A stretch of 64,000 nucleotides of DNA from Hysterangium stoloniferum (taxonomy: Eukaryota > Basidiomycota > Agaricomycetes > Hysterangiales > Hysterangiaceae), in the NCBI GenBank assembly GCA_015178975.1, contig WHVD01000050.1:310001-374000 (forward strand), read 5' to 3'. Made by a program: the position numbers and the translations under genes. Position 1 is the stretch's first letter; every line of letters begins with the position of its first letter. Below the pieces are notes generated by a model that was given only the letters and a program-made list of their open reading frames with translations, ran no database searches and was not told where the DNA came from. Shown piece after piece: positions 10,170 to 52,793 of this stretch.

Positions 10170-10911
10170 TGTTAAGAACAGAAAACTGACTAATGTCGGT
10201 AGGCTGACAGGGACTGATCGGAAGGACTTGGCTTCAGCTTATGTGCTGTGCCCTCGCAAATATCCGTCGGGTGTCCTTAAATTTCAGATGGGTGAAGACT
10301 AGTCCTAATGAGTACCTCTTGGCGAGTTACCAATTGGAACCGAAGGATAAGTCAAGTGTCAGGCCAAGGGGTCAGGACTGAGAGTGGACGAGCACACACG
10401 AAGGTGGATAGCAGGATACTTACTATGAGACTTCTAGAGGTGTAAGAGGGTATTCTGAGTTGATATTTTGATTGCCTTGTAACTACAACTACAGCGGGTT
10501 CATATACAAATATTAGGCGTCTAGAAAATACTAACTAGGAGAAAAGTGGAAAACGGTATTTGACAAATAAGCTTGACTAGGAATGGGAAGGTTACGATTA
10601 GTTTGGAGGCCGTGAAATAACCGAGAGCAGGATTACGAGAAAAGGAAATAGTCCGAGTGTTACAAGTATATATAGACATATGTAAAACATAGAGTAGAAT
10701 GGATCATCATAATAAAAAGGGACGTATCAGAATTTAATCAGATAGTACAAGTATATTTTGACGGGGGCGTAAACAGAGTTTGATCACCGTGAAAGCATAC
10801 ATCAGCATTGGGAGACTGATGGTTTCCAATTCAATGACTTGAATGATAACTTGAATCATCGATAGGTGGCAATAACCTCGGGGACCATCAGGTTGCGACA
10901 CAGTCATAACA
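10170..10911 (-). mobile_element. Solo LTR, family beta (Gypsy A family)
   Basis: 742 bp, reverse complement of the Gypsy A LTR (17458-18199), with TSD CACAG at 10165-10169 and 10912-10916. Contains the shared LTR module at 10224-10240. Confidence 0.95.
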
Positions 10912-17354: not shown

Positions 17355-17457
17355 CTGATCAGAAAATCAACTTAGCACCAACCTGGTATTCTACTTATTT
17401 GTCATAACTGTACACCAGCATGTTCCCAGAACCTGTGGGCCTTCTGACCAAGACCTA

Positions 17458-18199
17458 TGTTACAACCGTGTCGCAGCCCTATTGGTCCCCGAGGTTATCA
17501 ACACCATTCGACGATTCCAAGTTACCATTCAAGTCATCACATCGGAAACCATCGGCCCTCGATGCTGATGTACGCTTTCGTGGTGATCAAACTCCGTTTA
17601 CACCCATGTCAAAATATACTTGAACTATCTGGTTAAACTCTGATATGTCCCTTTTATTATGATCATCCACTCTATCCTATGTTTCACATATGTCTATATA
17701 TATTTGTAACCCTCAAACTATTTCCTTTCTTCATAATTCCGCTCTCGGTTATTTCACGGCCTCCGAACTAATAGTAACCTCCCATTCCTAGTCAAGTTTA
17801 TTTGTCAATACCGTGTTCCACTCTTCTCCCAGTTAGTATTTTCTAGATGCCTGTTACTTGTATATGAACCTGCTGTAGTTGTAGTTACTAGGCAATCAGA
17901 ATATCAACTCAGAATACCCTCTTACAACTATAGAAATCTTGTACTAAGTATTCCACTTTCCGCCTTCACGTGCGCTCGCCCCCTCTCGGTCCCCGACCCC
18001 TTGGCCTGACACTCGACTTATCCCTCGATTCCGATTGGTAGTTCCACCAAGAGGTATTCATTAGGACTAGTCTTCGCCCGCCTGAAATTTAAGGACACCC
18101 AACGGATAACTGCGAGGGCGCAGCACACAAGCTGAAGCCAAGTCCTTCCGATCGGTTCCCATCGGTCCACCAACATTAGTCAGTTTTTAGTTCTTAACA
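17458..18199 (+). repeat. Gypsy A 5' LTR
   Basis: 742 bp, TGTTACAACCGTG...TTAGTTCTTAACA. With the TATA box at 17861 and a predicted start at 17894, U3 is about 436 bp and R-U5 about 306 bp. Module at 18129-18145. Confidence 0.96.
17861..17904 (+). promoter_or_regulatory. Gypsy A LTR promoter and self-priming 5' end
   Basis: TATATGAA at 17861 lies 33 nt before AATCAGAATAT (17894-17904), which is exactly complementary to ATATTCTGATT at 18202-18212. The transcript 5' end is inferred from the TATA spacing. Confidence 0.65.
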
Positions 18200-18201
18200 G
18201 T

Positions 18202-18212
18202 ATATTCTGATT
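18202..18212 (+). promoter_or_regulatory. Gypsy A primer binding site (self-primer type)
   Basis: It begins 2 nt after the LTR and lacks the TGG expected for a tRNA 3' end. Its 11 nt are complementary to the predicted mRNA 5' end, as in Tf1/sushi-type chromoviruses. Confidence 0.65.
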
Positions 18213-18236
18213 TCACACTCGCACTTTCCATTAATC

Positions 18237-19545
18237 ATGCCTCTGAGGAAAAAAGATGCCAAGCCAAGTGGCGAAGCAGAATCTTCCACTCTCAAGTCTC
18301 CTTTCCTGTATACAGCCCAAGCTACTCAGAGAACCCCGCAACCAGGAACCTCCAAAGAATCCCGCTTTGTGGAAATTGCCGGTGATGCTGAAGAAGTTAC
18401 TGAAGCAACCGACCCTGAAGCACCTGAAGAGGATAACAATCAATCAGCTCCGGAACCTGAACCTGAGGATGGCGACCAACCCATACCTCAGGCCAGTGGT
18501 TCTAAGAAGTCCACAAAACAAAAACCAGATTTCGATCCCGACAAGACATGGGAATTGTTTTCAGGTACCCTAGGGTCCCTTAATGAATTCCTTAAAGCAA
18601 TACCAAGGAAAAAGAACCTGGGCAAACCTGAGTCAACAAACCCAAACCGTTTACTGGCTCAAACCTGAAGAAATTGCCGACATTTCTTATGCAATGTCGA
18701 TTCAACTTTCGGGACCGCCTGGCTGCATTTGCAACGGATGACCGAAAGGTAAATTTCGCACTCTCGTACCTTAAGGACTCTGCAGCAGCCTGGTTTGAAC
18801 CCGCATTCTCTGGCCTCACCTCTGAAGATCCCGATTGGCTTCACGATTGGGATGCCTTTGTTGAGGAACTTGAAACAAACTTTGGTCCTTACGACCAAAT
18901 CGGCGATGCCAAAACCGCACTTTCTAATCTCAAAATGAAAGACACCCAGTGCATCACCAATTACATCATCCAGTTCAACAATCTCGCTGCGTGTTGCAAC
19001 TGGGGTGATTTGACCCTCTTTTACCAGTTTTACTCCGACCTCCCATCTCGCCTCAAAGATGAAGTTTCCAAAGGAGAGACCAGCAAACCAAAGACTCTCC
19101 CCCTCATGCGTCTAAAGGCCCAAAACACGGATGCCTGATACTGGGAACAATGTTCAGAAATTAGTCGTGAAAACCCATCAGACAAAAAATCATTGGACAA
19201 TAAGAATGCTAACAAGTCTGGTAATCAAAACACCAACAATAGTGGCAACTCGAACTCCGATAAGAAGTCCGAAAACAAAGGGTCTAATGACAAAAAGGGC
19301 AAGGGCAAACAGTCGAATAAGTCTCAAGATAAAGACAAACCCGACTTAACTGGCAAACTCGGCTCTGATGGCAAGCTTTTACCACAGGAAAAGCAACACC
19401 AAATGGACAACAACCTTTGTTTGTTGTGCGCAGATCCCGGACACTGAGTCGCCGCATGCCCAAAGGCCACCAAAGCCCAATCGGCCAATACGGCGACGAC
19501 CCCACAACCGGCTAAGCTGGCTGCCGAGTCGAAAAAAGATTAAGC
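18237..19545 (+). pseudogene. Gypsy A gag
   Basis: ATG at 18237, 38 nt after the LTR. The N-terminus is acidic and Pro-rich (to 18600). A frameshift near 18600 leads into the capsid core with KVNFALSYLKDSAAAWFEP and WDAFVEELETNFGPYD. After a TGA near 19138 comes an Asn/Lys/Ser-rich region, then a zinc knuckle CLLCADPGH.VAAC with TGA after His (Arg expected, CGA to TGA). The frame ends near 19545. Closest relative in the window is Gypsy B gag (57843-56638). Confidence 0.9.
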
Positions 19546-21840
19546 AACTCTCTGGATTTTGTGCGGTTGGAGAGTTGCATTGAATCTCCTCGCACACTGG
19601 AAAATTGTCATCTTAACGCATCCGCCCTGTATGATCCTAATTCCTTGTTTATAAATCTTACTTCGGAACCCCTCGGAAATCTCACCTTTCGAGCCCTCAT
19701 AGATTCAGGCTCAACCCATTGTTTATAGATACAAGTTTTTCCCAAAAAAAATCAGTTAAAAACCTATGCAATAGATCTGATTCCGCTCTGACTCTTCGAT
19801 GGTACCTCAAACTCCGTAATCTTGCAAGCCTGTGAACTCCGACTTCGGTTCCCATGTGGAACCTTTCAGACAGTTACGTTTTTTGTAACACAGTTGGACC
19901 CGAGTTGCTCTGTGGTTCTAGGACATAACTGGCTCACCCACTACAATCTGTTGATTGATTGGGTATTGAGCAGTATCCATTTCCGAACATCGGCACCCGA
20001 GATGACTGGTCCGTTTCTGCCTGTTTCGGCAAATATGGCCTCTATGGCACCTCCAGCCCCCGTGGCAAATCTGAGCTCTCCGCCACACGTCTCTCTAATA
20101 AATGCCGCAGCTTTTATGAGAGCCATCAAGTTGGATGGCTCCCGAGCATTTACAGTCAACCTTAAAGTTGACGAAGTCACCGGTCATTTTGCAACCCCGG
20201 TGACCAAACCGATAGCAGATTTGGAAGGTGTTCCAGAAAAATACCATGAATTTGCAGATGTCTTCAGTAAACAAAAAGCTGATCGATTGGCCCCTCACAG
20301 GCCTTACAATTTGAAAATTGATATTGAAGATGGTTCACATCTGCCCCTAGGCCCAGTTTATCCTCTCTCACAGTCCGAGTTATTGGCTATTCGAGATTTC
20401 TTGGATGAAGATTTGGCTATAAGGTTTATCCAACCCTCAAAGTCTCCTTATGGAGCCCCTGTCCTATTTGTTCAGAAACAAGACAGTTCCCTTCGGCTTT
20501 GCATTGACTTTTGAGGATTAAATGCGATCACTCGAAAAGATAAGTACCCGTTACCACTAATCTCTGATTTACTCAATGCCCCTCGGAAGGCCCAAATCTA
20601 TACAAAGATAGACCTCAAGCACACGTATCATTTGGTTCAGATCGCCAAAGGCGATGAATGGAAAACGGCTTTTCGCACTCGCTATGGCTCCTTTGAATGG
20701 TTAGTGATGCCCTTTGGCCTCACCAACGCTCCATCAGTCTTTCAACGTTTTATCAATGACGCCTTTTCCGACCTCCTCGACGTCTTTTCCGACCTCCTCG
20801 ACGTCTTTTCCGACCTCCTCGACGTCTTTTCCGACCTCCTCGACGTCTTTTCCGACCTCCTCGACGTCTTTTCCGACCTCCTCGACGTCTTTTCCGACCT
20901 CCTCGACGTCTTTTCCGACCTCCTCGACGTCTTTTCCGACCTCCTCGACGTCTTTTCCGACCTCCTCGACGTCTTTTCCGACCTCCTCGATGTCTTTTCC
21001 GACCTCCTCGATGTCTTTGTCATTGTGTACTTAGACGACATTCTCATATTCTCCGAAGATCCTACACTTCATGATGAACATGTCCGTGAAGTTCTCTGAA
21101 GACTCCGAAAACATGGTCTTTTTGTGAATGGTAAAAAATGTTCTTTTGATGTCGACACAGTTGAATACTTAGGTTTTATGATGGGACCCGATGGTCTCCA
21201 CATGGACAACTCTAAAATTCAAGTCATTCAAGATTGGCCAGAACCCTGAAAGCTTAAGGACATTCAGTCCTTTTTAGGCTTTGCCAATTTTTATCGTTGT
21301 TTCATTCACAACTACTCAAAAATTACTGTTCCACTCACTTGTCTTACTCGTAAAGACACCCCGTGGAATTTTTCTGAAGAATGCCGAACGGCATTCTGAG
21401 AATTGAAAAGTGCATTTACATCTGCTCCTATTTTGTCGCACTGGAAGCCTGACATTCAACTCATTGTGGAAACTGATGCCTCGGATTATGTGCTCGCTGC
21501 GATATTGTCCATTATGGACACCGATGGTGAAGTACACCCAGTAGCCTTTTTGTCTTGCACATTCTCAGCACCCGAACTCAATTATGATGTTCATGATAAG
21601 GAACTACTTGCAATATCTGAAGCTTTCAAGACATGGCAACATTATTTGGAGGGATCGGCTCACCCGATAGATGTTATTACCGACCACAAAAATTTAGTTT
21701 ACTTTTCAACCACAAAACTCCTCACCTGTCGGCAAGCCCAATGGTCTGAATTCCTCTCTGCTTTCAATATGGTAATCCATTTCCATCCCAGCCACCTTGA
21801 CTAGATGATGGGACATCTATCCTAAAGAGGAGAGTAGTGA
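19546..21840 (+). pseudogene. Gypsy A protease, reverse transcriptase and RNase H
   Basis: Protease: FRALIDSGSTHC near 19690 and VVLGHNWLTHYN near 19915. RT: YPLSQSELLAIRDFL, a TGA replacing Arg after LRLCIDF (20512), [34 protein letters not shown], then a 12-fold 7-residue expansion, the catalytic VYLDDILIF (about 21020-21045) and EYLGFMM. RNase [28 protein letters not shown] and [12 protein letters not shown]. In-frame TGAs occur at Arg or Trp positions. These domains would copy the RNA into cDNA; this copy cannot make a full protein. Confidence 0.93.
20764..21015 (+). repeat. 12 x 21-bp in-frame minisatellite in the RT domain
   Basis: Twelve consecutive 21-bp units encode FSDLLDV. Units are identical except the last two, which carry GAT for GAC. 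The Gypsy B homologue (near 55410) has a single unit, FSDMLDV, directly before the catalytic segment. Confidence 0.97.
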
Positions 21841-23456
21841 CTACACCACGGTTAATCTGCATAATTTCAAGCCTATGTTCTCATCAGAACAACTGTCCGC
21901 ATCTATCCGAGCCACTTACCTCATTCATCCAGTCTTGCGAAGCGTTATCCTTATGGATACCGAAAAGTTACATCAAGACATACTATCGGCAATTCCATCA
22001 GACCCAGTCACCAAAGCACACCTCGATAACCCATCCGACCCCAATCAGCCCCGGTGGTCATTAGACTCACAAGGTTTCATTAGACTTACAAGGTTTCATT
22101 AGACTTGACAATCGCATCTATGTACCAGATTCCGAAACCCTTCAGCTGCGAATCTTACAACATAAGCACGATCACCCAATCTCGGGACATTTCGGCCTCA
22201 ATAAGACTCTCTCACTCATTAGAAGAGAATATACATGGCCCGGCATCCGAGATTTTGTTAAGCACTATTGTAAATCTTGTACTACATGTTTACACTCTAA
22301 ATCACAGTGACACAAACCATATGGCCTACTCAAACAATTACCGATACCAGAAAAACCCTGGAACTCGATTTCTATGGATTTCATCGAGCACCTACTGGCA
22401 TCCAAAGGTCACACAGCAATCCTAGTTGTTGTGGATCGGCTCTCAAAGCAAAGTATTTCATTCCCACATATGACACAATAACATCTGTACAGTTAGCTGA
22501 ATTATTCGTCACCCACGTATTTTCCAAGCATGGCGTTCCATCGCATGTCACATCCGATTGTGGATCTGAGTTTGTCTCTCACTTTTTTAGGTCACTCAGA
22601 AAAGCACTAGACATGAAGTTACACTTCACTTCAGGCTACCACCCGGAAGGCGATGGCCAAACCGAATGCATGAATCAAACCTCGGAACAGTACATTCATG
22701 TCTATTGTAACTATCAACAAGACAATTGGAAATCACTACTACCACTAGCCGAATTTGCATATAACAATGCACCAAATGCCACTACTGGCATTTTGCCTTT
22801 CTTTGCAAACAAAGGCCACAACCCCAATATCACAATCCACCCGGAACGCAATCTTGCATCTGCCCGTGCTCAAGACTTTGTTACAAACCTTGATGAGCTA
22901 CATCAAGAACTTCATAAAACTATCGCAATGGCCCAAGAACAATACCAACGGTCTGCAGATAAGAATCGACTTCCGCCCCCCTAATCTCAAGATCGGGGAC
23001 TGAGTATTCATTAAAGCCGAGTTTTTCTGAACTACTAGACCCTCTAAAAAGCTCCCTGAAAAATATTTAGGTCCTTTTGAAGTTATAGCACAAGCTGGCA
23101 CACTTTCATGGACGCTTCGGCTTCCTGACAACATGCGTGCAGTGCACCCGGTATTTCATGTATCTATGTTAGAACCTTGTGTTGCTAACAGTATACCAGA
23201 TCACATACAACCACCACTGCCACCTGTGATCATTGATGGAGAACCTGAATTTGAGATATCAGAGATCCTAGACTCAAAAATCGACAATCACCGATGCTCA
23301 TGCAAATTACTTTATTTGGTTAAATGGGCTGGCTATGAAGGAATAGATGAAGAAACTTCATGAATCCTAGCTACAGAGCTTGGCAATGCCTCGGAAATTG
23401 TTTTAGGGTTTCATCAAGCTTATCCGAATAAACCCAGTCCTCTAAATTCCTTATAA
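21841..23456 (+). pseudogene. Gypsy A integrase with C-terminal chromodomain
   Basis: HHCC zinc region HDHPISGHFG and CKSCTTCL. Core DDE: MDFIEH (about 22378), TSDCGSEF (22555) and GDGQTE (22655). The C-terminal part has KKLPEKYLGPFEV and HPVFHVSMLEP, then a chromodomain EFEISEILDS...LLYLVKWAGYEGIDEETS (about 23250-23360), with TGA where the conserved Trp follows. A 20-bp tandem duplication near 22070-22100 adds a frameshift. Chromodomains of this class tether integration to modified histones. Confidence 0.92.
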
Positions 23457-23543
23457 GTCTTTCATGCGGTATCCGACCTTTTTCCTACTATGCCTTATGA
23501 AATCACACTTTTGTTTGTTTGTTTTAAAATCATTATATTCCGG

Positions 23544-24551
23544 CTATTTAAAAGTCTCTTCTACCACCTCTCCTTCTTCTCTGGCCTCCGAACCCTCCCC
23601 CTCACCGACAGCCACTGATACCTCTTCACCGACCTTCTCCGATAACTCAACACCATGCCCAATCCCATCACAACTCGACACCTCTAAGTACTGCTCAAGT
23701 TGCCCTCCAAGGGACTCTATAACACTGGTTTGTTTCTCCAGCCCGACACCCAAAAGTCGCAACTGCTCAGTCATGAGCCCTTGCTGTTGCAGTGTCTCAA
23801 GTTGGAACCAAGTCGTTTCCAAGAAGTAGGTGTGCATAAGCCGGTTCTGCTCTTCCAGAGCATCGGCCTGTCATTCTTGATAGGACCCATTGCCATTGGC
23901 ATCTGGGAATACACATCCGAGTTTTTGGTTGGCGCACTCTTGACAAGTGTGGCCCCGACCACTTGCCCGAGTATGGCAGGTCTGACCCTGTTTGGTGCAC
24001 CAGTTGCACTTGGGGTCATTTTCGGCCCCCATTTTAGGGGCTTGTTTTTGTTTCTATAAATCAGATTTAGAAATTTTCTAAATTAGGGACCCGAACCTAC
24101 CTTAGGGCTCGACGGCCCTAGTACATCCTCCTCATCCTCATCCTCCTCATCCTCATCCTCCTCTTCGTCATCAGACTCCGAAGGCGTCGCGGCCTTACAC
24201 TAAAAAAAAAAAAGTTAGTAGATTTTGAAAGGTATACGGGAACCGACTTACCTTCCCCTCTCGCTTCTTTTTTGCCACCTCCTCTCGCGCCCATTCGGCC
24301 TCCTGCTTCTTCTTCTTCGCGAGCACTGCATCCCAGTGCTTGCGTGCAGCCTCTTCCGCTGCCAGCTTCTTCTCCTCAGCCTCAATGGCTGCCAACTCCT
24401 CCTTCTCCTTCCACTCCTCCTCTTCATGCGCCTTCCGTTTCTCCTCGAGTAGACGATGACATTCTTGCACATTGGGTGGTCCACTGGGGACTGACATGGG
24501 AGGGACTGTTAACTGAACTGGAAACTGCTTCGACCCCGAACCAATGGTCAT
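23544..24551 (-). CDS. Gypsy A accessory antisense gene: coiled coil plus six-Cys zinc-cluster-like domain
   Basis: Spliced minus-strand gene between pol and the 3' LTR, convergent with pol. ATG at 24551; exons 24551-24252, 24199-24101 and 24053-23544. Intron 1 (52 nt) has GTAAGT, a CTAAC branch site and a poly-T/TAG acceptor; intron 2 is 47 nt (GTAGGT...TAG). Exon 1 is a charged Glu/Lys/Ala coiled coil. Exon 2 is an Asp/Glu run. Exon 3 opens with C-x2-C-x6-C-x10-C-x2-C-x6-C (CNWC, then QTC, HTCQEC, LGC), resembling a Zn2Cys6 cluster, followed by a Leu/Gln-rich helix and an acidic tail. One TGA interrupts exon 3 near 23866. Gypsy B has the same gene with the same intron positions. Function unknown. 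Confidence 0.82.
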
Positions 24552-24600
24552 GGTGGTCGAGGGAAGAGAAGTGAAGAATCAAGCGCTGGTACCCTTCAAA

Positions 24601-24608
24601 TTTTTATA
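24601..24608 (-). promoter_or_regulatory. TATA box of the Gypsy A accessory gene
   Basis: TATAAAAA on the minus strand, about 50 bp upstream of the ATG at 24551, in the 174-bp gap between the gene and the 3' LTR. This suggests transcription independent of the LTR. Confidence 0.6.
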
Positions 24609-24724
24609 CGTAAATTTTTTCCGAGTCACATGATGTTTTGACACACCCAACCGTACCCGACGAGTTTTACATATGGGATCTAGATTTTCAGCCTCCTTGG
24701 GATTTCGGCCAAATGGGGAGATAC

Positions 24725-25466
24725 TGTTACGACTGTGTTGCAGCCCTATCGGTCCCCAAGGTTATCAACACCATTCGATGATTCCAAGTTACCGTTCAAG
24801 TCATCACATTGGAAACCATTGGCCCCCAATGCTGACGTACACTTTCATGGTGATCAAACTCCATTTACACCCACATCAAAATATACTTGAACTATCTGGT
24901 TAAACTCTGATATGTCCCTTTTATTATGATGATCCGCTCTATCCTATGTTTCACATATGTCTATATATATTTGTAACCCTCGAACTATTTCCTTTCTTCA
25001 TAATTCCACTCTCAGTTATTTCACGGCCTCCGAACTAATAGTACCCTCCCATTCCTAGTCAAGTTTATTTGTCAATACCGTGTTCTGCTCTTCTCCCAGT
25101 TAGTATTTTCTAGACGCCTGTTACTTGTATATGAACCCGCTGTAGTTGTAGTTACTAGGCAATCAGAATATCGACTCAGAATACCCTCTTACAACTATTG
25201 AAATCTCGTACTAAGTATTCCTCTTTCCACCTTCGCATGCGCTTGCCCCCTCTCAGTCCCTGACCCCTTGGCCCGACACTCGACTTATCCCTTGATTCTG
25301 ATCGGTAGTTCCACTGAGAGGTATTCATTAGGACTAGTCTTCACCCACCCAAAATTTAAGGACACCCAATGGATAATTGTGAGGGCGCAGCACACAAGCT
25401 GAAGCCAAGTCCTTCCGATCGGTCCCCGTCGGTCCACCAACATTAGTCAGTTTTTAGTTCTTAACA
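24725..25466 (+). repeat. Gypsy A 3' LTR
   Basis: 742 bp, preceded by purine-rich AAATGGGGAGATAC (polypurine tract) and followed by TSD ACCTA. Module at 25396-25412. Confidence 0.96.
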
Positions 25467-25471
25467 ACCTA

Positions 25472-37777: not shown

Positions 37778-38564
37778 TGTTAAGAACTGAAAACTAACTA
37801 ATGTCAGCTGGCCGACGGGGACCGATTGGAAGGACTTGGCTTCAGCTTATGTGCTGCGCCCTTGCAAGTTACTGTCGGGTGTCCTTAAATTTCGGGTGGG
37901 TGAAAACTAGTCCTATCAAATTCCTCATGGTGAGTTACTGATCAGGAAATGAAGGATAAGTCAAGTGTCAGGCCAAGGGGTCAGAGAGTCAGAGATTAGA
38001 GGTTGAAGTCATAAATGTAGATTGAATCATAAATCGGATGGAGTCGGAATGTGGTGGTCATGAATAGAAAACGGAGTTGGAGATTAGAGGGGTGTCTAAG
38101 TTGATATTCTGATTGCCTAGTAGCTACACTACAATGGGTCTATATACGAGTTATCGGCATCTAGAAACTACTAACTAAGGGAGGAGTGGAAATACTATTG
38201 ACAAATAAACTTGACTAGAAACTGGAAGGGTACGATATTTTCGGAAACTATGATTAGCTGAGAGCAGGATTACGAGAAAAGGAAGCAGTCCATGGGTTAC
38301 AAATATATACAGGCATATGTGAAACATACATAGAGTAGAACAGATCATAATAATAAAAAGGGGACATATCAAAGCATAACCAGATGGTACGAGTATATTT
38401 TGACAGGGGTGTAAATGGGGTTTGATGGCCATGGAGGTATATGTCAGTGTCAGTGTTCCAATGGTTTCCAAAACAATGACTTGATCAATAACTTGGAACA
38501 TCGATAGACGGTAGTCTCCTCAGGGACCGTCGGGTTGCGACACAATTATGACATGGTCATAACA
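37778..38564 (-). mobile_element. Solo LTR, family beta
   Basis: 787 bp, reverse complement of the Gypsy A LTR with a 13-bp longer outer end. Flanks TTATT (37773-37777) and TTAT plus G after the foldback element (38565-38568, 50527) match at 4 of 5 positions. Module near 37832-37849. Confidence 0.88.
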
Positions 38565-49309: not shown

Positions 49310-49765
49310 TGATTTGTGACACTTTTGTGACTTTTTGCAACATGACTTTTTGCGATACTTTGTGACTTTGTGCGACACTTTGTGACTTTGTGCAACTTTG
49401 TGACTTTATGTGACACTTTGCAACTTTGCAACTTTTCAAAGAGTCACAAAGAATAAGTCGCAAAGAGTAAGTCGCAAAGAGTCTGAAAAAGTCGCAAAGA
49501 GTCTAAAAGAGTCGCAAAGAATCTAAACGAGTCACAAAAAGTCGCAAACAGTCTACATGTGTCACAAAGAGTCTATAACAGTCATAACGAGTCTATAACA
49601 GTCACAAAGAGTCTAAAAGAGTCGCAAAAAGTCCAAAAGAGTCACAAAAAGTCCAAAAGAGTCGCAAACAGTCTATCAGAGTCGCAAACAGTCGCAAACA
49701 ATCACAAAGAGTCTAGAATAGTTGCAAAAAGTGTAAAAGAGTCACACTCTAGCTTCCTGAAAACT
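49310..49765. repeat. Outer short-repeat array, right arm
   Basis: Mirror of 39340-39785: GAGTCGCAAAGAGTCTAAAA-type units. Confidence 0.9.
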
Positions 49766-50523
49766 TGCAAATCACATTGAATATTCCCAAACACTTGCCA
49801 ATTGTAATGAATCACACTGTATCTTTTCAAATATTTGCGAATTGCACTGAATTGCACTGTATCCTTTCGAATATTTGCAAATCGTGCTGAATTGCAAAAC
49901 ATCGGTTCAGGGTTTCTCACCTTAAAAAACCTCTAAGAAACTCATGGAAAATCATCAATTTCTTCATGATTTCACAAACAGATTTTTTGAATTTCCATAG
50001 TGTTTGTGACCAAGGAAAATTTTGTTGAAATATATAATTATTCAATGATTTTATGTATAATTAAATTGTAAATTTCATCATGGTTTTCCCCTTGACAAAA
50101 CATTAAAAAAACTTTGTCTTGGCTTGAGATTTTTTCAGGCAGAAAACCATAGTTTTCACTGAATTCCCTCAGGGGCAAAATTAAGTAGAAATATGTGGTT
50201 TTCAATTGATTTCTCTAGGCACATTATTACAGTTTTCATAGGATTTTGTTAGATGGAAAAATCCTAACAAAATACAGGGTTTTCTAAAAGTTTTCTTATT
50301 CAGAAAATCCATAAAGAATAGGCTATTTCCAACAATATTTCCTCATGATTTCCTGATGCAAATTTTTAGAATTTTCAGATCCAATTTTCGGCCTCAGAAA
50401 AACCTACTAAAACTCAGAATTTTCAAAGAGTTTTTCAATTCACAAAACACTTAGAAAATTTGGCCAAATAACAAGATTTTCTGAAGGTTTTCCAACTCCA
50501 AAAATCTTGGGGTGCCTCCAGTG

Positions 50524-50733
50524 TATGCGGTTTCTGAAAGGTTTTCCGATAAGGCAAGGGACCAGCCAAATGATCCATTGGCAGAATGTGTCAGGAAAAG
50601 GTGGGAGTCAGGAAAGGGGCTGGAAAGTGAGGATGATGAAGTGCAGGATATGGTGGAAAGTGCAGAGGTTGTGGATGATACAGGAGTTGAAGTGGAAGGA
50701 GGATTTGGAGTGTCAGAAACATTACAATAGTTG
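50524..50733 (+). pseudogene. Gypsy B accessory gene, 3' end
   Basis: Resumes after the foldback TSD with VSERFSDKARDQ and an acidic tail (ESEDDEVQDMVES, VEVEGGFGVSETLQ) ending in a stop. The acidic tail corresponds to the end of the Gypsy A gene. Pol of Gypsy B converges from the other side about 150 bp away. Confidence 0.7.
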
Positions 50734-52071: not shown

Positions 52072-52793
52072 TGTTACGACTGTGTCGCAACCCTATTGGT
52101 CCCGAGGTTATCACCACTTATCAACGTTTCAAGTCACCATCTCGGAAACCATCAGCCCCGAAGCTGATGTATGTCTTCGCGAAGATCAAACTCCATTTAC
52201 GCCCACGTCAAAATAACTCGTATTGTCTGGTCAAACTTTTGATACGTCCCTTTATTATGTTGATCCGTTCAATCTTATGTTTCACATATGTCTATCTATA
52301 TTTGTAGTCCTTGAACTATTTCCTTTTATCATAATCCTGCTCTCGGTTATCATCGGCCTCCGAACTAATCATAAACTTCCCGTTCCTAGTCAAGCTTATT
52401 ATTAATGCCGTTTTCCGCCCTTCTCCCCATTAGTATTTTCTAGACGCCTGTTACTTGTATATGAACCCGCTGTAGTTGTAGTTACTAGGCAATCAGAATA
52501 TCGACTCAGAATACCCTCATACGTCTGTAACAGTCCCATACTAAGAACCCCCCCATCCGCCTTCGCGTGCGCTCGCCCACTCCTGGCCCCGACCCCTTGG
52601 CCTGACGCTCAACTTGTCCTTCAGTTCCAATTGGTACCTCGCCGAAAGGAGCTCTTTAGGATTAGTCTTCACCCGCCCGAAATCTAAGGACACCCTACGG
52701 ATATTTGCGAGGGCACAGTACATAAGCTGAAGCCAAGTCCTTCCGATCGGTCCCTGTCGGCCACTGACATTAGTCAGTTTTCAGTTCTTAACA
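52072..52793 (+). mobile_element. Solo LTR, family beta, in Gypsy B integrase
   Basis: 722 bp in plus orientation, TSD CAAGA at 52067-52071 and 52794-52798. Module at 52724-52740. Confidence 0.95.

Follow-up and report, generated by a model that had tools for sequence, protein, structure and literature searches.

Several retroelements carry a gene on the strand opposite to gag-pol, and such systems are compared here with an antisense gene of Gypsy A, a long terminal repeat (LTR) retrotransposon lying in a stretch of 64,000 nucleotides (the window) from the truffle-like fungus Hysterangium stoloniferum. HBZ is a bZIP protein produced from a spliced antisense mRNA. In HTLV-1, it represents an antisense retroelement gene whose product is nuclear (PMC11963269). 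In fungi, an antisense gene named brtn was reported for the Botrytis cinerea element Boty (Zhao et al., 2011, Virology 417:248, cited through PMC7264820, PMC8365987, and PMC4227169); PMC8365987 places it in BcGypsy1, and one Boty-like gag-pol is reported to carry a CHROMO domain (PMC4227169). In plants, antisense genes located between pol and the 3' LTR, referred to as aORFs-3R, include gene23 of Grande, the genes of RIRE2 and PvRetro13, and those for the TRP28 proteins of Retand; Grande GENE23 is reported to be nuclear with transcription from its own promoter, and DNA binding has been proposed for the Retand proteins (PMC7264820; PMC11963269). PMC7264820 states that the function of antisense genes at this place is not known.

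The gene considered here occupies positions 23544..24551 on the minus strand of the window (contig WHVD01000050.1, positions 310,001 to 374,000, assembly GCA_015178975.1), in the part of Gypsy A that separates pol from the 3' LTR, and is almost certainly a selected, element-encoded protein gene. Conservation of the gene model across copies and purifying selection at the protein level were shown for it and, as judged from its sequence, it is an accessory protein gene of a chromovirus-like Ty3/Gypsy clade in H. stoloniferum, present in two element families. The host is an ectomycorrhizal agaricomycete with a genome of 111 Mb in 554 contigs (genome reported in PMC7550596).

The antisense gene of Gypsy A and its genomic copies

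The gene is convergent with pol and starts with an ATG at 24551. Exon 1 (24551-24252, 300 nt), exon 2 (24199-24101, 99 nt), and exon 3 (24053-23544, ending with the stop codon at 23544-23546) are separated by intron 1 (24200..24251, GTAAGT..TTTAG, 52 nt) and intron 2 (24054..24100, GTAGGT..ATAG, 47 nt). A TATA-like box, TATAAAAAT, is located at 24600..24608 on the same minus strand, about 50 bp upstream of the ATG, and is preceded by a conserved candidate promoter block (24610..24700, minus strand) that doubles as the sense 3' region. Exon 3 encodes a six-cysteine cluster (23913..24008, minus strand) identified by its spacing, C-x2-C-x6-C-x10-C-x2-C-x6-C, and this is the sole match to the spacing pattern in the six frames of the window. 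A sequence-only reading of the window had proposed this three-exon gene together with its TATA box, textbook introns, and cysteine cluster; all of these are present, and the exon and intron coordinates are correct in the sequence. It overlooked a premature in-frame TGA after residue 193 (23871..23873, minus strand), because of which the window copy is unable to make the whole protein and is dead. The introns survive retrotransposition because they are antisense to the genomic RNA. This orientation explains their survival but is not the sole way for a retroelement to keep introns, since retroviruses retain sense introns through unspliced genomic RNA; the rule in the sequence-only reading that introns survive only if antisense was therefore too strong.

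The gene was followed in 60 copies, comprising the window copy, 39 copies retrieved by DNA similarity, and 20 copies picked for a stop-free exon 3; three were dropped beforehand and 57 were aligned. GT..AG borders are found in 53 (intron 1) and 54 (intron 2) of the 57 aligned copies, and in 38 and all 40, respectively, of the set formed by the window copy and the similarity-fetched copies. Clean intron loss was seen in none of 52 copies, five further copies having been set aside as truncated or partly unalignable, and the shortest introns measure 47 and 45 nt. Across these 52, the reading frame is kept by the length of exon 1 in 44 and of exon 2 in 49, and the lengths of the introns are spread over all three phases. 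Upstream of the ATG, ATAAAAA or ATAAAAC occurs in 39 of the 57 aligned copies. Of the 318 cells for cluster cysteines in 53 copies (seven of the 60 being dropped for this count and for the variant counts below), 317 hold Cys and the remaining one is a stop. An uninterrupted frame from ATG to stop, encoding 264–294 residues, was seen in 14 copies, three of them among the 39 unselected copies and 11 among the 20 selected ones. The mean number of stops per copy is 2.0 in the claimed frame vs 5.3–11.2 in the other five, as determined in 37 copies fetched regardless of openness. One copy (L047) shows an expanded in-frame KAKEEQ hexapeptide repeat, bringing its exon 1 stretch to 747 nt vs 300.

Exon 3 is present in at least 150 genome copies (150 scored of 537 candidates), and more than 60 of the 150 listed are stop-free; this and the family B figure given below are counts of gene copies. 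The surroundings of 20 loci, among the copies closest to the window, were inspected with about 6 kb of flank each. The integrase (IN)-chromodomain end of pol adjoins the gene in the expected orientation in 19 loci (the exception being L018), a position beside Gypsy pol that the sequence-only reading had named as a check, and an LTR follows the gene in 18 (the exceptions being L012 and L023). At the protein level, two third-party protein models, P0001 and P0004, run uninterrupted across both predicted splice positions. Protein database searches returned no more than six partial models as relatives, all from H. stoloniferum and all containing parts of the antisense gene, an illustration of how readily annotation passes over genes of this sort. 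No homologue from other species was found in these searches, a result that means little because repeat genes are masked in most genome annotations and one genome was examined.

Purifying selection on the antisense frame and decay of the copies

Among the 14 intact copies (91 pairs), the ratio of nonsynonymous to synonymous polymorphism (pN/pS) amounts to 0.27 for the claimed frame; the other five frames give 1.23, 0.85, 1.23, 0.37, and 1.05, making the antisense frame the most constrained of the six. The ten deepest pairs, each between copy L038 and another intact copy, have a ratio of nonsynonymous to synonymous divergence (dN/dS) of 0.10–0.18 at dS 0.44–0.63. The dN/dS across copies had been suggested as a check in the sequence-only reading, and it comes to about 0.11 between subfamilies (0.11 for L038 against the other 13 intact copies with CpG-type codons dropped). 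The five most recent pairs have a dN/dS of 0.5–0.8, in line with the expected post-insertion decay. Outside CpG sites, nonsynonymous and synonymous changes stand at 95:28 among singletons vs 20:43 among variants found in at least 12 copies (53 copies; Fisher p 3.5e-9). In older copies, the ratios are similar, with 0.236 for the antisense gene (20 copies), 0.236 for gag (nine copies), and 0.30–0.36 for the reverse transcriptase (RT), IN, and chromodomain-end pieces of pol (14–15 copies). The pS of the antisense gene in these older copies is 0.41 (20 copies), about twice that of the pol pieces (0.16–0.20, 14–15 copies), and CpG richness or recombination between subfamilies in the 3' region could explain the difference.

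Non-CpG divergence is 0.03–0.12 over the exons (0.086–0.12 in exons 1 and 3), and reaches 0.16–0.27 in the interior of intron 1 and 0.28–0.30 in that of intron 2. In the block at 24610-24700, it is 0.022–0.062, below the introns and below exons 1 and 3. The stretch from the TATA box to the ATG behaves inconsistently, with a divergence of 0.24 in one comparison vs 0.08 in the other.

Most of the in-frame stops (51 of 75 tallied) fall where other copies have a CGA codon, and 44 of the 51 differences in the aligned part of the LTR pair in the window are CpG-type transitions; therefore, decay proceeds mainly via CpG transitions. This pattern suggests that Gypsy A elements are methylated by the host, and LTR dating without a CpG correction would badly overestimate their age.

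The family B homologue and the elements of the window

A second Gypsy family, B, is represented in the window by a gag-pol on the minus strand (about 57540-50846), the pol DNA of which is 70–72% identical to that of A. Its 3' end is cut in the window, and a remnant at 50526..50730 on the plus strand is the tail of the homologous antisense gene. The match to nine genomic copies (L069–L077) starts at about 50526, and farther upstream these copies contain the missing portion of the gene, more or less well preserved. The cysteine spacing is whole in four of these nine (L069, L073, L074, and L076), is present but interrupted by a stop in L072, and is broken or missing in the other four (L070, L071, L075, and L077). 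With L071 left out, GTAAGT..AG occurs at the place of intron 1 in seven of eight copies, and six of eight begin with GT at the place of intron 2, where L077 has GC; L076 matched neither intron pattern. A TATAAAAA box lies upstream of the gene in six of the eight. The A and B proteins share an identity of 26–27%, and their profile comparison gives a probability of 96.7 (E 3.8e-10). In exon 3 of B, pN/pS is 0.35 in the antisense frame vs 0.49–0.79 in the other frames (nine copies), and exon 3 occurs at least 150 times in the genome (744 candidates, of which 150 were scored), with roughly 100 of those listed being stop-free. Because the B homologue has both splice positions and the cysteine spacing of A, the gene predates the split of A and B; its cysteines and intron positions have persisted through the divergence of most of the sequence. 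A stop in exon 1, upstream of the K/E-rich stretch, is common to the B copies read by eye among L069–L077, and could reflect a third intron in family B or shared decay.

Gypsy A spans 17458-25466. Its 5' LTR (17458..18199, plus strand) is 742 bp long with TG..CA ends, and self-alignment with the 3' LTR (24725..25466, plus strand) gives 93.0% similarity over 742 gap-free columns; the target duplication ACCTA is found at 17453-17457 and again at 25467-25471. The gag-pol (18238..23455, plus strand) contains several stops in this copy. It is assigned to the Ty3/Gypsy type by the Pfam matches of its RT, RNase H, and gag above the cut-offs (RVT_1 56.4, RT_RNaseH 111.9, and Retrotrans_gag 39.9 bits), and SH3_Tf2-1 also exceeds its cut-off. 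The rve domain falls below the cut-off, as does Chromo (E 0.0012, 19.1 bits vs 25.1), inside which a stop cuts the open reading frame of the window copy. Within the RT domain, a 21-bp unit (FSDLLDV) is repeated 12 times in tandem at 20767-21019; in 14 other copies with both flanks matched, only 7–85 bp separate the flanking pol matches. Further LTRs akin to those of Gypsy A lie at 52078-52791 (80%), within the family B pol, at 10172-10905 (84%), and at 37780-38544 (74% identical). A degenerate array of a 10-bp unit (agtcgcaaag-like, 20 overlapping register copies) occupies 49440-49776, near the cut 3' end of B.

Proposed role and comparison with known systems

The protein of L038 consists, in order, of a short N-terminal part, a K/E-rich stretch (29–100), an acidic run, SPKKQKQAPK, the six-cysteine cluster, a helix-like stretch, and an acidic tail. 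We give an even chance to the proposal that the gene encodes a nuclear DNA-binding regulator of the element made from a spliced antisense mRNA. The mRNA would start from the TATA promoter inside the element, and then be spliced and translated. The protein may enter the nucleus via the basic PKKQKQAPK stretch, and its six cysteines would coordinate two zinc ions in the way Gal4-type clusters do. The DNA it binds would most likely be the LTR or the antisense promoter of the element itself, whose transcription it would thereby set, with the acidic stretches possibly contacting the transcription machinery. The gene would probably serve the self-regulation of the element. A more specific version, which we find conceivable but doubtful, is that a Gal4-like zinc-cluster factor, antisense and intron-containing, recognises and regulates or un-silences its own copies in a CpG-methylating genome, so that an HBZ-like regulator evolved in a fungal chromovirus.

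The cysteine spacing of the A gene, not named as Zn2Cys6-type in the sequence-only reading, lies within the range of the Gal4-type Zn(2)-Cys(6) family (PF00172), and the basic residues in the first loop are a further likeness. Several observations weigh against a regulator of this type. The Pfam domain Zn_clus was listed for three of eight unaltered cluster-bearing pieces, drawn from both A and B, with 10.1, 11.1, and 12.1 bits vs a cut-off of 21, and searches of solved structures with the protein gave no credible match. The cysteine codons are free of CpG, so that part of their conservation is mutational, and at CpG-type sites alone, rare and common variants are not clearly separated (35:15 vs 33:30, p 0.08). 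The coiled coil proposed in the sequence-only reading is marginal, the N-terminal K/E-rich stretch having no amphipathic period (p 0.95) and the C-terminal one a marginal period (p 0.058). Conservation along 28 LTRs, which is not a motif search, pointed to no binding site, and the conserved block at 24610-24700 proves none because it overlaps the sense 3' region.

The sub-threshold Zn_clus scores would suit a protein acting elsewhere, as a structural, export, or integration cofactor that binds genomic RNA, Gag, or integrase, with the six cysteines forming a zinc fold for binding protein or RNA. Protein contacts would fit the high charge of the K/E stretch and the acidic runs, and an export factor, CERV, is known in the LTR element Cer1 (PMC10309623). 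Such a cofactor seems rather unlikely to us, as the cysteine spacing of both A and B falls in the Zn2Cys6 range. The CpG type of most LTR differences in the window is what host methylation would leave, and the many copies that exist despite apparent methylation raise the thought of a counter-defence factor that, bound to the element, would counteract methylation or RNA silencing. VANC of the Arabidopsis VANDAL transposons, an anti-silencing factor, is the model for such a role. It is given a low probability, since the CpG decay shows that the copies examined were unprotected in the end.

Convergent antisense transcription would also yield double-stranded RNA with the gag-pol RNA, as discussed for plant elements in PMC7264820, and the antisense RNA rather than a protein might matter for copy-number control or as a source of double-stranded RNA, the open reading frame being incidental. 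This is very unlikely, because the frame-specific constraint, the frame-keeping indels, and the contrast in nonsynonymous and synonymous variants need a protein; antisense RNA as the sole role is ruled out by the codon constraint, and it may coexist with the protein. Fungal genomes are rich in Zn2Cys6 genes, from which a passenger fragment of a host gene could have been captured. The constraint across subfamilies, with dN/dS far below 1, and the diverged homologues in two families make this highly improbable, and it was rejected on selection and on the lack of a host homologue in the protein database searches, which returned only the H. stoloniferum models holding parts of the gene. An env-like gene on the sense strand, casting the antisense frame as a shadow, could be read from the sense frame 'rev 1', which ranks second from the bottom in pN/pS (0.37 in A and 0.49 in B). 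We give it hardly any credence, as the antisense frame has a still smaller ratio in A (0.27) as well as in B (0.35), the sense frames of A hold 5.3–6.1 stops per copy vs 2.0, and it is the antisense strand that carries the conserved splice sites; sense-strand coding was rejected by the frame comparison.

Compared with known systems, the antisense gene of the Hysterangium element is not the first of its kind, which is already known from the plant genes above and, with brtn in Boty-like elements, also from a fungal chromodomain element. According to the accounts cited above, the likeness to brtn is that of an antisense gene in a fungal chromodomain element; the host of Boty is an ascomycete, unlike H. 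stoloniferum, and no Botrytis protein was returned by protein database searches with the antisense gene product. With brtn already described, the unfamiliarity of such a gene in fungal chromoviruses, asserted in the sequence-only reading, does not hold. What stands of that interpretation is a real antisense, intron-containing, element-borne accessory gene, and its novelty, intron rule, and coiled coil were overstated or weak. Two conditions that it had set for its own refutation, on pol neighbours and on dN/dS, turned out in its favour. In the literature outside most subscription journals, we found no LTR retrotransposon described as having an antisense gene that contains introns and encodes a zinc-cluster-like motif; brtn may have introns. 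What appears to be new is the combination of two conserved introns and a Zn2Cys6-like cluster in an antisense gene of an LTR retrotransposon, for which selection is now clearly demonstrated.

Genes on the opposite strand are known from other kinds of element as well. In nuclear rDNA group I introns, antisense homing endonuclease genes keep a 47-nt spliceosomal intron and are expressed and spliced in vivo (PMC9548176); both element and protein differ from those of the Hysterangium gene. In Ectocarpus, Sola1-1_Ec32 carries a ParB/methyltransferase gene opposite the transposase, suggested to bind and mark its own transposon (PMC12477816). It is a DNA transposon, and the domains are unrelated to the Hysterangium protein. 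The antisense promoter of HTLV lies in the 3' LTR (PMC7264820), whereas the Hysterangium candidate promoter is internal, and no sequence relation is claimed. The TRP28 domain (PF04195) of the Retand proteins is absent among the Pfam matches of the Hysterangium gene up to E 10, and Retand belongs to a non-chromovirus lineage, unlike the chromovirus-like Gypsy A. The main texts of PMC7264820 and PMC11963269 never use the word 'intron', and the Hysterangium gene has two. The likeness to the aORF-3R class itself lies in the place beside pol and in the many copies (at least 150 in A and at least 150 in B) instead of a one-off transduction; the TATA box and upstream block are conserved, and a promoter of its own is predicted. 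For this class of genes, the present case provides a concrete hypothesis, namely that a zinc cluster binds the DNA of the element that encodes it, and families A and B together supply no fewer than 300 natural copies as material for mapping constraint.
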